12,386 nt of DNA from Candidatus Nomurabacteria bacterium (lineage in GTDB: Bacteria; Patescibacteriota; Minisyncoccia; Phycocordibacterales; Phycocordibacteraceae). A program made the position numbers and the translations under genes. The notes beneath the pieces are model-generated. The model saw only the letters and a list, made by a program, of their open reading frames with translations, ran no database searches and was not told the origin of the DNA. Shown here piece by piece: positions 3,053-8,107 of this stretch. Each line of letters begins with the position of its first letter. Position 1 is the stretch's first letter. The stretch lies in the NCBI GenBank assembly GCA_943355045.1, contig CALRDY010000009.1, positions 1 to 12,386 on the forward strand, in the 5' to 3' direction.

Positions 3053-3072
3053 TTCGACACAGAACGAAAAGA

Positions 3073-3109
3073 CATGCAAAAACGGCTCAATCGAGCCGTT
3101 TTTGCATGT
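3073..3109. terminator. Perfect hairpin, probable bidirectional terminator
   Basis: An inverted repeat around 3073-3109 has 17-bp arms (5' arm ACATGCAAAAACGGCTC) and a short AATC loop. Each arm carries an AAAAA/TTTTT block, but inside the stem, so a U-run is available in both directions. It sits downstream of the minus-strand unit tRNA-Arg/HTH gene/tRNA-Gly/repeat A and would end that transcript. Confidence 0.6.
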
Positions 3110-3192: not shown

Positions 3193-3369
3193 GTGCGGGT
3201 AGGGAGAACCCCGATTACAGTTTCGGCTACGGATAATTTTCTCGCCGTCGCTCGAAAATTTCCTCGGCCCCGCCTCGCGGTTTCTCTTGCTGGCGAAACA
3301 TCGCTCTGGCTTTCGATTCTCCCTACCCGTCCTATCCTCGTTACACTCGTCTGGTGCGGGTAGGGAGAA
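3193..3369 (-). repeat. Repeat unit A: tRNA-Gly(GCC) 3'-end copies in direct and inverted orientation
   Basis: This fills most of the 408-bp gene-free stretch between yraN and tRNA-Gly. A 16-bp copy of the tRNA 3' end, GTGCGGGTAGGGAGAA, occurs at 3193-3208 and again in the tRNA itself at 3354-3369, offset 161 bp. An inverted 18-bp copy (3312-3329) is the exact reverse complement of 3357-3374 in the tRNA. It also pairs over 13 bp with the distal direct copy (3196-3208 with 3317-3329). Reading along the tRNA transcript the order is tRNA, antisense copy, about 100 nt, second sense copy. The same order, and similar internal words (CGAG..TA.CGAGGA, AGAAA..CCGC.AGGCG, GTAATCG.GGT), occur after tRNA-Arg (repeat unit B). 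Confidence 0.85.
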
Positions 3370-3425
3370 TCGAACTCCCATCATCTGATTGGCAACCAGA
3401 TGTTCTACCATTGAACCATACCCGC
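3352..3425 (-). tRNA. tRNA-Gly (anticodon GCC), CCA encoded
   Basis: Minus-strand cloverleaf: acceptor GCGGGTA/TACCCGC, D-arm GTTCAATGGTAGAAC, anticodon stem TCTGG/TCAGA with loop TTGCCAA (anticodon GCC), T-arm GGGAG-TTCGATT-CTCCC, discriminator A at 3355. The next three bases (3354-3352) read CCA, making this the only one of the four tRNA genes with an encoded CCA. Its first base directly follows the TGA stop of the upstream HTH gene, so it is almost certainly cut from a joint transcript. An 18-nt sequence antisense to its T-arm and acceptor 3' strand lies 22 nt downstream of its CCA end. Confidence 0.95.
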
Positions 3426-4112
3426 TCACTTGGATATATTCTCATAATATCCCCTGCCGAGCAATTCTTCAGGGAGGAGTTTTACCCACTCTAGGATCTT
3501 TTGTTTGAAATAGGTGCTTGAGACGGTTACCGTACAGACACCCCATCCAAGCCGGCGTGTCGCATGGCGCCCCTCTATCACGACGCTTTTTGTGAAGTTC
3601 TCCCAGGGCAGTCCGCTTACTTTCGACCAGTATGCTCGGATAGTTTTCTCTTCCAAATCGGGATATATAAGCACATATGCCTTGATTTTTTCGACAGGAA
3701 TGCGGCATGACCGGATAAGGAATTGCACGTAGAACTTGATCATTTTCGCGTCACTATTCGTGACTATTACCCCCACCTTGGGATTTTTCGTGCCTTCTCC
3801 CCAATAGAGCATGATGCCGGAGATGAATACTGGATCGTATTTAAGCAATTCGAATTCTTTCTGGGCCTCCTCGCGGGCTGCTTCATATGCTTGAGCGAGA
3901 CGTTGGCCACGAGTCTTATTCAAGCCCATGAGCCGCACCGTGTTTCCTTCCTTAGCCGAGGTGGTAAGGCGTTTCCGAATCTCTTCAGACCATCCTTTTT
4001 TAGTAAACCAATCAGAAAGCGTGCTACGAGGGATGCAAAGCATCTGGTGGATTTCGTTGTAGCTTTTTCCTGCTCGTCGCAGATTTGCAGCAGTTTCCTT
4101 ATCTTTTCGCAT
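3426..4112 (-). CDS. HTH-containing protein of unknown function (LYWGEG-type family)
   Basis: 228 residues. The N-terminus (about 8-36, NLRRAGKSYNEIHQMLCIPRSTLSDWF) is a clear resolvase/MerR-like helix-turn-helix, so DNA binding is likely. The rest contains SGIMLYWGEGTK (about 97-108), VTNSDAKMIKFYVQFLI and a C-terminal TVTVSSTYFKQKILEWV. The arrangement is faintly reminiscent of LAGLIDADG-type proteins, but the canonical acidic residue of the first motif is not in place, so I do not call an endonuclease. Similar LYWxEG proteins occur in other bacteria without known function, as far as I can recall. The ATG at 4112 has TATGAT 6 nt upstream, a leaderless-type arrangement. The TGA stop (3428-3426) touches the tRNA-Gly 5' end with no spacer. 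Base composition looks more AT-rich than its neighbours, and it lies between two tRNA genes carrying 3'-end duplications, which hints at horizontal origin. Confidence 0.8.
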   Translation of the reverse strand: MRKDKETAANLRRAGKSYNEIHQMLCIPRSTLSDWFTKKGWSEEIRKRLTTSAKEGNTVRLMGLNKTRGQRLAQAYEAAREEAQKEFELLKYDPVFISGIMLYWGEGTKNPKVGVIVTNSDAKMIKFYVQFLIRSCRIPVEKIKAYVLIYPDLEEKTIRAYWSKVSGLPWENFTKSVVIEGRHATRRLGWGVCTVTVSSTYFKQKILEWVKLLPEELLGRGYYENISK

Positions 4113-4124
4113 CTTACAATCATA
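4113..4124 (-). promoter_or_regulatory. -10-like hexamer directly before the HTH gene
   Basis: TATGAT (minus strand, 4124-4119) is 5 of 6 to the -10 consensus and ends 6 nt before the ATG, so transcription would begin at or next to the start codon. No -35 and no ribosome binding site are evident. Confidence 0.4.
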
Positions 4125-4167
4125 TCAGACGCGAGTTCGGAAACAGGAGTTGTTCGCTTTTCTAGTG

Positions 4168-4344
4168 GTGCCCCGACCAGGACCGCGATTACGCTTTTCG
4201 ATCCTTACAGGATCGGTACGCCTTGCGGATTTTCTGTTCGCTTCGCTCCATAAAATGCTCGCAAGGTCTTCGAATCCTGGTCGCACGTCTCCCAGACGTG
4301 CTTCGGGGTACGTCCTCGCTAGCTCGGCTGTGCCCCGACCAGGA
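4168..4344 (-). repeat. Repeat unit B: tRNA-Arg(TCG) 3'-end copies in direct and inverted orientation
   Basis: This fills the gap between the HTH gene and tRNA-Arg. The tRNA 3' end GTGCCCCGACCAGGA occurs at 4168-4182 and in the tRNA at 4330-4344, offset 162 bp (161 in unit A). An inverted copy TTCGAATCCTGGTCG at 4269-4283 is the exact reverse complement of 4336-4350. It can also pair with the distal copy over 9 bp (4174-4182 with 4275-4283). Two further hairpins lie inside: CGATCC/GGATCG (about 4199-4215) and GCACGTCT-CCC-AGACGTGC (4283-4301). The distal copy reads GC-A-CCA on the minus strand, whereas the tRNA gene itself reads GC-A-CAG, as if the native 3' flank had been moved 162 bp away. 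Confidence 0.85.
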
Positions 4345-4402
4345 TTCGAACCTGGAACGACTGCTTCGAAGGCAGTAATGATATCCATTTCACCATCGGG
4401 GC
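4331..4402 (-). tRNA. tRNA-Arg (anticodon TCG)
   Basis: Minus-strand cloverleaf: acceptor GCCCCGA pairs with TCGGGGC, D-arm GGTGAAATGGATATCATT, anticodon stem ACTGC/GCAGT with loop CTTCGAA (anticodon TCG), T-arm CCAGG-TTCGAAT-CCTGG, discriminator A at 4331. The bases after it are CAG, so CCA is not encoded. It is divergent from cca, which starts 39 bp away on the other strand. Repeat unit B follows its 3' end. Confidence 0.95.
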
Positions 4403-4429: not shown

Positions 4430-4441
4430 TACGATTTGGAA
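4430..4441 (+). promoter_or_regulatory. -10-like hexamer directly before cca
   Basis: TACGAT (4430-4435) is followed by 6 nt (TTGGAA) and the ATG at 4442. If used, the mRNA would be leaderless. This favours ATG 4442 over the in-frame TTG at 4436, which would lie at the edge of the -10. No -35 is visible. Confidence 0.35.
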
Positions 4442-5905
4442 ATGCTGCATCGCATTCCAAGCGAAGTCTCATTAGTCTCAAATGGTCTGCGGAAAGCGGG
4501 ATTCGAGCCATATCTCGTCGGCGGATGCGTGCGCGATCTCATCATTGGGCGCGAGCCAAAGGATTGGGACATTACGACGAATGCAACACCGACGCAGATC
4601 CAGGCTATATTTCCTGACTCTTTTTATGAAAATGACTACGGGACCGTCGGCGTGAAGACTGGTTCTGAGGATCCGCGCCTCGCTATCGTTGAGATAACCC
4701 CCTACCGCACCGAATCTGCGTATTCTGACAAGCGCCGCCCGGACAAAGTAGAGTTTGGTACTTCCCTGCTTGAAGATCTCGCCCGCCGCGACTTTACCAT
4801 CAATGCCATCGCGCTCGACGACGCTCAAGGACATCTGGTTGACCCGTACGACGGTCAAAAGGACATAAAGGACAAAGTGGTGCGGGCGGTTGGTAACGCC
4901 TCTGAGCGCTTCAATGAGGACGCTCTGCGCATGCTTCGTGCCGTTCGCTTAATCGCCGAGCTCGGTTTCGGCATAGATAGCAATACAGCATCGGCGATAA
5001 ACGAAAATAGCAAGCATTTAAGCCATGTTTCACGTGAAAGGGTTCGGGATGAGCTCGTAAGAATACTGAATTCGAGTCAGCCGATGAATGCCCTTGTCCT
5101 TGCGCAGCAGCTCGGTATTCTCGAATTCATCGTCCCGGATCTCATTCGCGGTATCGGCGTCGAGCAGAATCAGGCTCACTCGTATGATGTCTTTGGGCAC
5201 AATCTACGCACGATGCAGCATGCGGCTGATAAGGAGTGGGGTTTTGATATTCGTCTCGCGGGTCTCTATCACGACATTTCAAAGCCGGAGACTCGCCGCT
5301 GGGTTGAAGAAAAGAAGGACTGGAGCTTCCACGGGCATGAAGTTGTTGGTTCACGTGTAACAAAAAAAGCCCTTGAAGACCTCCATTTCCCGCGCGAAAC
5401 GATAGATAAAGTCGTTAAATTGGTGCGTTGGCACATGTTCTTCTCTGACCCAGAACAGATTACCCTCTCTGCAGTACGTAGGATGATCAAGAACGTCGGC
5501 GAGGAGAATATAGTGGACTTGCTCAATCTGCGCATCTGCGACCGCATAGGGACCGGCAGGCCGAAGGAGCAGCCTTTTCGTTTCCGGAAATACAAAGCGA
5601 TGGTTGATCAGGCGCTTCGCGACCCTATTTCAGTAGCAATGCTAAAAACAGACGGGAAGCACATCATGGAAATGTTCCACGTGAACCCAGGACCGAAGCT
5701 CGGATGGACGCTGAACGCGCTTCTTGAGGAAATACTTGATGATTCCGCTAAGAATACCGAAGAATATCTCGATAAACGAACCGAAGAGCTTCTCAAAATG
5801 CCTGAAGATGAGCTACGGAAGCTTGGAGAATCTGGAAAAAAGAAGAGGGAAGCAGCTGAAGATGAGGAAATAAAGCATATAATGGAGAAACACCACGTCT
5901 GTTGA
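4442..5905 (+). CDS. cca: CCA-adding tRNA nucleotidyltransferase with HD domain
   Basis: 487 residues. The enzyme adds or repairs the 3'-terminal CCA of tRNAs from CTP and ATP. Class II nucleotidyltransferase head: FEPYLVGGCVRDLIIGREPKDWDITTNATP with the metal-binding D41-W-D43; then the flexible-loop and B/C-type motifs around RRDFTINAIALD (115-127) and the RNA-binding neck (ERFNEDALRMLRAVRLIAELGF). An HD domain follows (GLYHDISKP, His277-Asp278; FHGHEVVGS), giving a Cca with probable extra phosphohydrolase activity. The last ~40 residues are charged and probably coiled (EEYLDKRTEELLKMPEDELRKLG). A CCA-adding rather than poly(A)-polymerase role is supported by nearby tRNA genes, three of which lack CCA. 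Start ATG 4442; an in-frame TTG at 4436 is the alternative. Three parS-like sites lie inside the gene in different reading frames. Confidence 0.95.
   Translation: MLHRIPSEVSLVSNGLRKAGFEPYLVGGCVRDLIIGREPKDWDITTNATPTQIQAIFPDSFYENDYGTVGVKTGSEDPRLAIVEITPYRTESAYSDKRRPDKVEFGTSLLEDLARRDFTINAIALDDAQGHLVDPYDGQKDIKDKVVRAVGNASERFNEDALRMLRAVRLIAELGFGIDSNTASAINENSKHLSHVSRERVRDELVRILNSSQPMNALVLAQQLGILEFIVPDLIRGIGVEQNQAHSYDVFGHNLRTMQHAADKEWGFDIRLAGLYHDISKPETRRWVEEKKDWSFHGHEVVGSRVTKKALEDLHFPRETIDKVVKLVRWHMFFSDPEQITLSAVRRMIKNVGEENIVDLLNLRICDRIGTGRPKEQPFRFRKYKAMVDQALRDPISVAMLKTDGKHIMEMFHVNPGPKLGWTLNALLEEILDDSAKNTEEYLDKRTEELLKMPEDELRKLGESGKKKREAAEDEEIKHIMEKHHVC
5026..5041. promoter_or_regulatory. parS-like site 1 (inside cca)
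   Basis: TGTTTCACGTGAAAGG matches the Bacillus-type ParB site TGTTTCACGTGAAACA at 14 of 16 positions. It lies in the codons for VSRER of Cca. Confidence 0.6.
5347..5362. promoter_or_regulatory. parS-like site 2 (inside cca)
   Basis: TGGTTCACGTGTAACA, 14 of 16 matches to the parS consensus, 321 bp after site 1. It overlaps the codons for GSRVT of Cca. Confidence 0.55.
5673..5688. promoter_or_regulatory. parS-like site 3 (inside cca)
   Basis: TGTTCCACGTGAACCC, 13 of 16 matches, 326 bp after site 2. It is read in a different codon phase (MFHVNP), so it is not a by-product of a repeated peptide. Confidence 0.55.
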
Positions 5906-7207: not shown

Positions 7208-8107
7208 TTATTCCCTGGAGCGAGAATGGTATTTGCGATGAATTTCTCGTAAATGGCTGTCCGTTATGTGCGTATAGATCTGGGTAGTATTGATGGAAGC
7301 GTGGCCGAGGAGCTGCTGGACGGAGCGTATGTCGGCGCCGTTGTTGAGGAGGTCCGTGGCGAAGACGTGTCGGAGGATATGCGGCGAGACCTTTTTCGTG
7401 ATGCCGGCCTTTCTGGCGCAGGTCTCGATGAGGCGCTCGACGGAACGAGGCGTGAGGCGCGCAGGGATTGCTTTCCCGCGCGGAACATTTACGAAAAGCG
7501 CTTCCGCCATGTCCTTGCGGGCCTTTAAATATGCCGCGACAGCGTTTTTGGCAGTGGGGGAGAGGAACACGACGCGGACTTTGTCACCTTTGCCCCGCAC
7601 CGAGAAGGAGTCTTGGGTCAGGTCGAGATCGGTGTCGAGCGCGCAGAGTTCGGATACGCGCAGTCCGGTAGAAAAGAGGAGTTCGAGTATCGCGGTGTCG
7701 CGCAGATTTTTCTCTTCGGTGCCATGGGCGGCTTGCATGAGGCGCGCGAGCTCGGCAGGAGTGATGAGATCGAGCTGGCGCTCGGGAAGCTTCGCGAGCT
7801 CAATCTTCTCCGGAGAAATGGCGGCGATGTCGCGTTTCCTGAGGAATTTGAGGAAGGCGCGCAGCGCAATCATGTAGTAATTCTGGGTGCGACGCTTCAT
7901 GGACCCGGCAGCCGTACCCGGCTGCCGGTTGAGCCAGAGACGGAATTCGCGGACATTCTGCTCGCTAATGTCGCCCACGTCCCGTATGTGCATCTGAGAA
8001 AAATAGCGGGAGAGGTAGTGATCGTAATTTTCAATGGTTTTGACCGCCCGACCGCGTTCGATTTCGATATATTCAAGGAATTGTCGTTTTGCCGCCTCAG
8101 CGTTCAT
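7208..8107 (-). CDS. xerC: Xer-type tyrosine site-specific recombinase
   Basis: 299 residues, the size of XerC/XerD. N-terminal SAM-like core-binding domain (about 5-95, with KTIENYDHYLSRY) and C-terminal catalytic domain with the full set: R150 (STGLRVSEL), K173 (RGKGDKVR), H243 and R246 (HILRH), H269 (LLGHASINTTQIYTH) and nucleophile Y278. The residue positions are almost the same as in E. coli XerD. Xer enzymes resolve chromosome dimers at dif. No dif-like site or integron/phage context is seen, so a housekeeping role is likely; only one Xer gene is visible, so XerC versus XerD cannot be decided. The ATG at 8107 has TACACT 6 nt upstream and no ribosome binding site. Confidence 0.92.
   Translation of the reverse strand: MNAEAAKRQFLEYIEIERGRAVKTIENYDHYLSRYFSQMHIRDVGDISEQNVREFRLWLNRQPGTAAGSMKRRTQNYYMIALRAFLKFLRKRDIAAISPEKIELAKLPERQLDLITPAELARLMQAAHGTEEKNLRDTAILELLFSTGLRVSELCALDTDLDLTQDSFSVRGKGDKVRVVFLSPTAKNAVAAYLKARKDMAEALFVNVPRGKAIPARLTPRSVERLIETCARKAGITKKVSPHILRHVFATDLLNNGADIRSVQQLLGHASINTTQIYTHITDSHLREIHRKYHSRSRE

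Follow-up and report, generated by a model that had tools for sequence, protein, structure and literature searches.

Why should the sequences that follow two neighbouring tRNA genes contain copies that fit their own upstream tRNA, and what kind of element could produce such an arrangement? The question arises in the window, the whole stretch of 12,386 nt of Candidatus Nomurabacteria DNA analysed here, where tRNA-Gly(GCC) and tRNA-Arg(TCG) are each followed by a short unit. The sequence-only reading had offered two answers, a mini-element inserting at tRNA 3' ends or a structured trailer co-evolving with its tRNA. From the present analysis the units are insertions of folded, non-coding DNA of about 150 to 200 nt at tRNA 3' ends, and we assign a probability of roughly 60% to the reading that each is the insertion of a mobile, protein-less and strongly folded element. 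This reading draws on a target duplication at one tRNA, a fold backed by covariation, the sense orientation of the units, a local match of the copies in most of them and a change of target between similar cores.

Anatomy of the two units

Both units lie on the minus strand, and for both the succession of tRNA, antisense copy, internal part and second sense copy was confirmed, as were the direct-copy offsets of 161 and 162 bp and the exact antisense copies of 18 and 15 nt that had been read for the Gly and the Arg unit, respectively (Table 1). When some 250 nt downstream of each tRNA were dinucleotide-shuffled 2000 times, the longest inverted and direct matches were 13 and 12 nt for the Gly unit (18 and 16 observed) and 14 and 11 nt for the Arg unit (15 and 14 observed). 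The internal words said to be shared between the units held up in part: a small hairpin that precedes the second copy (CTGTAATCGG in the Gly unit, GCGTAATCGC in the Arg unit) and words of the spacer are indeed common, whereas the cores belong to two different families.

Table 1. Positions of the two units, their repeats and host genes in the window.
Feature	Position	Strand	Basis
Terminator-like hairpin downstream of unit 1	3072..3109		
Unit 1 tail2, second sense copy (16 nt) of tRNA-Gly 3' end	3193..3208	-	
Unit 1 type A core: two long hairpins (P2, P3) and CTG-TAAT-CGG hairpin	3209..3311	-	
Unit 1 inverted copy, 18 nt exact, of tRNA-Gly T-arm/acceptor 3' strand	3312..3329	-	
Unit 1 spacer, tRNA to inverted copy	3330..3351	-	
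tRNA-Gly(GCC), host gene of unit 1, 3' end = tail1	3352..3425	-	
Unit 1 direct copies, 16 nt, offset 161	3193-3208/3354-3369		
Unit 1 inverted copies, 18 nt	3312-3329/3357-3374		
Unit 2 tail2, second sense copy (15 nt) of tRNA-Arg 3' end, runs on as CACCA	4168..4182	-	
Unit 2 type B core: CCTTGCG..CGCAAGG, CGATCC..GGATCG and GCG-TAAT-CGC hairpins	4183..4268	-	
Unit 2 inverted copy, second part: 15 nt exact; T-loop, T-stem, two acceptor bases	4269..4283	-	
Unit 2 P0 hairpin (GCACGTC-TGGGA-GACGTGC), splits inverted copy	4283..4301	-	predicted fold
Unit 2 inverted copy, first part: imperfect complement of acceptor 3' strand	4304..4311	-	by eye
tRNA-Arg(TCG), host gene of unit 2	4330..4402	-	
Unit 2 direct copies, 15 nt, offset 162	4168-4182/4330-4344		
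Unit 2 inverted copies, 15 nt	4269-4283/4336-4350		

The terminator-like hairpin downstream of unit 1 is also present in a G002 locus (L133) that has no unit. An ORF between the Arg unit and tRNA-Gly (3426-4112, minus strand) has an N-terminal helix-turn-helix (weak HTH_23 match) and what we take to be a LAGLIDADG-like look, with no family match; matches to it were obtained in 34 of 58 genomes, and G005 has no such gap between the two tRNAs. Near the tRNA cluster of the window are also a Xer-like tyrosine recombinase (7208-8107, minus strand) and a CCA-adding tRNA nucleotidyltransferase (4436-5905, plus strand).

Two core families in the genome and its relatives

The genome to which the window belongs (452 kb, 51 contigs, 87.8% complete) gave 33 tRNA matches, of which 32, all except C22:2082, were inspected. 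Five carry a unit, namely those for Gly, Arg, Cys, Leu and Pro; further copies, on whose existence the sequence-only reading had staked its proposal, are thus found in the same genome as well as in relatives. The Gly, Cys and Pro units share a core designated type A and the Arg and Leu units a core designated type B. A covariance model built from the Gly, Cys and Pro units (R1) matches just these three in the genome and misses the Arg and Leu units, which places the cores in two families, and a second model (R2) was built from the Arg and Leu core family. In the window the R1 match at 3200-3325 covers the core of unit 1 and the R2 match at 4177-4276 that of unit 2, each unit being a training sequence of its model. 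Behind the tRNA tail come a spacer, an inverted copy of that tail (in many cases interrupted by P0), the folded core and the second tail copy. With regard to assembly chimerism, which the sequence-only reading had named as a possible refutation, this design recurs in many separate assemblies.

When related genomes were searched with the covariance models, as had been advised, both matched widely: among 58 genomes, own and relatives, R1 (E up to 0.01) has matches in 44 and R2 in 27, with one or both core types in 45, and type B reaches 30 matches in one genome (G055). The R1 set held 100 matches in 92 loci, or 98 after two repeats of the same places were dropped, and a sense tRNA ends within 250 nt upstream of 87 of these and within 100 nt of 82. 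Of the tRNAs within 100 nt of the 98 matches, 83 stand upstream in sense and none upstream in antisense; those downstream number 9 in sense and 5 in antisense. For type B, 32 of 33 R2 matches were examined (the second L282 match was dropped) and 23 have a tRNA within 220 nt, 23 also within 100 nt. More distant type A loci (29 matches, 28 loci once one second match was dropped) have a tRNA within 200 nt in 21 of 28 cases, and loci from named genomes within 220 nt in 22 of 30. Over the near, distant and type B sets the host tRNAs cover all 20 amino acids.

Match of the copies to the local tRNA and change of target

In the type A set of 82 units, which includes the three R1 training units and the near-duplicate L043, an antisense run of at least 11 nt to the own tail was found in 55 units (79 of 6278 comparisons with other isotypes) and a second copy of at least 11 nt in 42 (11 of 6278). 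The type B antisense segment matches the own tail in 17 of 23 units against 2 of 422 other-isotype comparisons, and the second copy in 18 of 23 against 0 of 422. The statement that the copies fit the tRNA of their own unit, made originally for the two units of the window, therefore holds generally, in most units of both core types.

In L064 the second copy is exact but the antisense segment does not fit, which argues against a strict guide role; the one exact match of this guide in its genome is the unit itself, and no tRNA donor for it was seen in 12 of the 20 near-match loci of that genome. In the Arg unit of G002 (L276 vs L304) the tRNA tail is unchanged and the antisense copy next to it has drifted, and in L042 the inverted copy and tail2 keep an A57-type letter where the own tRNA has G57; both speak against selection for the match. 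In G005 the inverted copy mirrors the changes in the tRNA-Gly (TCCGA, TGCCCGC), as does tail2 for the acceptor change, which favours a match that is either kept or made anew. The core of this G005 unit is clearly different, so it may be an independent insertion. A cell-by-cell comparison of tail1, antisense copy and tail2 in 53 of 80 units (18 without a T-loop copy and 9 with an unrecognised tail2 were dropped) gave 386 cells in which all agree and 3 in which all differ, with tail2 differing alone in 54, the antisense copy in 48 and tail1 in 1; since many differing cells are indels or lie at the P0 boundary, it is given little weight. In L130, L250, L263, L264, L267 and L288, units of different tRNAs, the antisense segment shows the same small change, with GAGAA or GAGGA in place of the TCGAA or TCGGA that would complement the T-loop exactly.

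Comparison of the cores themselves revealed that the nearest core, among the retrieved units and with L043 set aside as a near-duplicate, sits at a tRNA of the same anticodon in only 7 of 81 tRNA-assigned units and in the same genome in 9 of 81. Three pairs at different tRNAs, L048 (Leu)/L049 (Asp), L072 (Cys)/L078 (Ala) and L103 (Ser)/L114 (Asn), are 89-92% identical in the core and unlike outside it, and each member fits its own tRNA, with tail2 of L048 and L078 partly decayed. Further close pairs, L044/L052 and L062/L080, involve short forms. Cores about 90% identical that stand at different tRNAs with locally matched copies indicate that the element changes target and that the copies follow.

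Evidence for insertion

An empty site, which had been named as a thing to look for, was found at tRNA-Pro(CGG). G000 and G002 share an insert of 165 nt, identical in the two and flanked on either side by a 28-nt repeat, which spans from the T-loop to 12 nt beyond the tRNA; G015 has the repeat once and no insert, and the 70 nt that precede its repeat do not differ from those of G000. The Pro marker gene occurs in 6 of 92 genomes, the other three being represented by L349 (a different neighbourhood), L350 (no tRNA nearby) and L351 (a weak match, left out). Insertion with duplication of the target is thus shown at this one tRNA.

Presence at the tRNA-Gly/YraN locus is sporadic. Among 24 loci with a sense tRNA-Gly(GCC), 2 have the full unit, 2 a short form and 20 no unit, as judged by eye over 330 nt in 30 loci taken from the 41 of 58 genomes with a YraN match. 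The empty locus L135 continues past its tRNA like the tail2 flank in the window, and tail2 is accordingly probably the original tRNA end, as far as this resemblance goes. L285, with two different type B cores in series, the second sitting at the tail that the first had left behind, is a case of sequential insertion, and at L166, which is not a tRNA, the same design is seen with a 33-nt direct repeat and an antisense copy of the repeat start.

Two observations concern the movement of the host genes. The Pro unit is identical at L346 and L347 (G000 and G002) and the adjoining small ORF is just 78% identical in protein, which suggests that a block of tRNA and unit was transferred between genomes. 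By eye, the same tRNA-Gly(GCC) is found in genomes with differing YraN proteins at L132, L135, L136, L143, L147, L151, L152, L156 and L158, other alleles occurring at other loci, and tRNA alleles may therefore move between genomes.

Fold and fine anatomy

The type A core is modelled as a P2 and a P3 hairpin, around which the inverted copy and tail2 can close. Over 97 distinct R1 matches 92.2% of cells pair and two-sided changes occur in 29 of 29 pairs, with a covariation of 0.579 against at most 0.108 for slid partners; over 33 type B matches the values are 96.6%, 16 of 19 pairs, and 0.545 against at most 0.116. As both alignments were fitted to the structure, the pair counts lean towards the fold, a bias which the slid and shuffled controls offset in part.

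On the sense strand P2 and P3 together show 52 G.T cells against 14 A.C cells, 25 of the G.T cells coming from one pair; without these 25 cells the ratio is 27 to 14 (p 0.06). Such an imbalance would suggest that it is the sense strand that folds, though most of it is due to that single pair. The idea that scarce G-U pairs mark the stems as DNA-only was dropped: the P2/P3 G.T rate is 1.1%/3.0% against 2.6%/5.0% for tRNA stems, and a rate at or below that of tRNA stems is compatible with both RNA and single-stranded DNA.

An antisense copy of the T-loop is present in 60 of 80 units and missing in 20, among them short forms. In 39 of the 60 the uninterrupted copy stops after tRNA position 64, 65 or 66, near the boundary of T-stem and acceptor, and a P0 hairpin of at least 5 pairs stands at the stop in 44 (counted without a shuffled control), its loop being CTGC in 19 of the 44; an acceptor complement of at least 6 nt precedes P0 in 21 of the 60. 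Recognised tail2 copies start mostly at position 56/57, right after the core, or else at 59/60, often behind a small hairpin with the loop TAAT or similar, and in many units tail2 is decayed. In the short forms (at tRNAs for Trp, Lys, Val, Ala and others) the tRNA is followed directly by a hairpin, then by about 6 nt of complement and the core. Some units stand in tandem. A tRNA-like structure of acceptor and T-arm, with P0 replacing the other arms, would fit the geometry and was rejected in view of the many decayed tail2 copies.

Proposed mechanism and rival explanations

The element would consist of the P0 hairpin and a type A or type B core some 90-110 nt long, entering the 3' tail of a tRNA gene and sometimes other places. 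A folded single strand would enter, staggered nicks would duplicate the tail and fold-back copying would add the inverted copy. The target would then be left three times, as tail1, by which the tRNA stays whole, as the inverted copy beside the core and as tail2, the original end; the inverted copy and tail2 could close the fold around the core. That the moving form is a folded single strand, DNA or RNA, mobilised in trans appears to us about an even bet. More tentatively, the inverted segment may be a guide that pairs with the target, its pairing seeded by the near-universal T-loop sequence, and that is rewritten to the local sequence during or after insertion by fold-back or template-switch synthesis. 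The 20 of 80 units that have no antisense T-loop copy, including short forms with about 6 nt of complement, count against this. Template switching has been proposed to create and maintain perfect stems (PMC8794818).

Of the two answers given by the sequence-only reading, the mini-element is the one supported, in view of the empty Pro site, the sporadic presence at Gly, the cores about 90% identical at different tRNAs, L285 and L166, and the structured trailer is disfavoured by the same facts. A trailer transcribed together with the tRNA, in which the antisense segment switches tRNA maturation by pairing with one or the other of the tRNA tail and tail2 and the copies co-evolve by selection, would accord with the sense orientation of the units behind tRNAs, with two alternative folds predicted in silico and with the mirrored G005 tRNA-Gly changes, even if the clearly different core there may reflect a separate insertion. 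We nevertheless hold it unlikely, since the unit is absent at 20 of 24 Gly loci and at the G015 tRNA-Pro, the design recurs at a non-tRNA site, the G002 Arg antisense copy has drifted beside an unchanged tail, and a terminator-like hairpin often separates the tRNA from the inverted copy (seen by eye, uncounted). A miniature integrative element moved by a tyrosine recombinase at a T-arm attachment site, with tail1 and tail2 as attL and attR, would use a classic kind of site, the tRNA 3' end. A duplicated tRNA end with a restored tRNA is what the Gly and Pro loci present, with tail2 as the displaced end, and a Xer-like recombinase is encoded in the window. Yet a single enzyme would need attP sites matching the tRNAs for every one of the 20 amino acids, different, locally matched copies accompany cores of about 90% identity, the repeat length varies (15, 16, 28 and 33 nt), the 165-nt Pro insert contains no integrase gene, and to our knowledge an inverted copy is not part of such attachment sites, so that we give this account little credence.

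The two remaining accounts name other enzymes. Insertion of IS200/IS605 elements is not known to duplicate the target or to rewrite the guide, which stands against Y1 single-strand transposition of the IS200/IS605 or RAYT type in view of the 28-nt duplication at Pro, although folded element ends would suit it. Y1 genes have matches in 31 of 44 type A genomes against 4 of 14 others (Fisher p 0.010, raw, one of three tests and with genomes treated as independent of kinship); 13 of the 44, including G043 with 11 units, have no Y1 match, and 20 Y1 loci examined hold no R1 or R2 match. Many of the RAYT-like Y1 genes viewed (L228-L247) are flanked by near-perfect palindromes of their own, as seen by eye. 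The inverted segment would here be a long version of the IS608 guide, which recognises its target by base pairing and has been engineered to 12/17-nt targets (PMC5934647); on balance we rate this account a poor prospect. The other account, target-primed reverse transcription, would start from a SINE-like RNA and obtain the inverted copy through self-priming at the tRNA terminator; it would explain duplications of variable length and copies that end at the T-loop. Modified T-loop bases stop reverse transcriptases. Reverse transcriptase domains, however, have matches in 17 of 44 type A genomes and 8 of 14 without (raw p 0.35, same three tests and same independence assumption), RT_1 has no match in 27 of the 44, and the unit-rich G018, G020, G027, G043 and G044 have no such match; this account seems very improbable to us. 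The helix-turn-helix/LAGLIDADG-like ORF fared alike as a partner (27 of 44 type A genomes and 7 of 14 without, raw p 0.54, counted likewise). Of these three candidate partners only Y1 is associated at the genome level, and the Y1 loci examined being free of units, a mobilising enzyme was not found among them.

Relation to known systems

REP/RAYT repeats and MITEs are short, protein-less and hairpin-rich, occur in several copies per genome and are probably moved in trans, and the units resemble them in being short, protein-less, hairpin-rich and present in several copies; unlike in these, the target supplies the closing stem and most sites are tRNA tails, and the palindromes around the RAYT-like genes here differ from the units. 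With the integrative elements of tRNA ends the units share the duplicated tail, the whole tRNA and the tail fragment left downstream, and differ in three ways: they are too short for an integrase gene, a given core type is found at tRNAs for every amino acid, and an inverted copy lies within them. Group I and II introns and IS110 bridge RNAs are structured RNAs with target-complementary segments, a combination also seen here; the units are far shorter than the introns, and their complement follows the target at each site. IS200/IS605 elements are not known to have an inverted target copy, and the 20 Y1 loci examined here showed no link to the units. We know of no described element in which a guide-like segment is refitted to each target. 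A literature search, in which subscription journals were thinly covered, showed no such element, and the sequence-only reading likewise knew of none.

IS608 also has folded single-strand ends and a target chosen by pairing between element and target, its target being a tetranucleotide, unlike the long tRNA-tail match found here (PMC5934647). TIGR-Tas, likewise from these bacteria, has a different layout, as far as PMC12045711 describes it. In the window and 20 related loci, Rfam release 15 gave nothing but tRNA above the gathering score; assignment to a known RNA family was rejected, the miRNA and other matches below the cut-off being taken as chance.

It is conceivable, though we would not bet on it, that the units represent a new class of mobile element, a protein-less folded single strand led to its target by a guide, which is afterwards rewritten from the new target; if true, such an element could move among the tRNA genes of every amino acid and would finish with a guide that fits the site it occupies. 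Whether selection or template switching is the rewriter, and which enzyme moves the element, would then be testable questions. Fragments of tRNA left by integrations in archaea are treated in PMC9897764, and if the proposed reading is right, 3' tRNA fragments in the present genomes can be insertion scars.

Distribution across the phylum

Across the phylum, R1 has matches in 38 of 379 genomes, own genome and genus included (E up to 1e-4). If the proposed reading is right, Patescibacteria, whose listed genomes are of about 1 million bases or less, carry up to 30 element matches per genome. The Gly unit has no blastn matches in phages or plasmids and one type A pattern has no match in viral_contigs, and a phage or plasmid origin was rejected on these results.

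A type A pattern scan of named genomes returned 30 loci. Of these, 26 come, by record title, from Patescibacteria, Parcubacteria, Paceibacterota or named lineages thereof (Kaiser-, Nomura-, Adler-, Moran-, Falkow- and Yanofskybacteria); the other four come from Saccharibacteria (L171), Elusimicrobia (L170) and two entries labelled just 'bacterium'. L170, on a contig binned as Elusimicrobia and maybe misbinned, shows by eye a direct repeat of about 50 nt, within which a second P0 hairpin stands that has paired changes.
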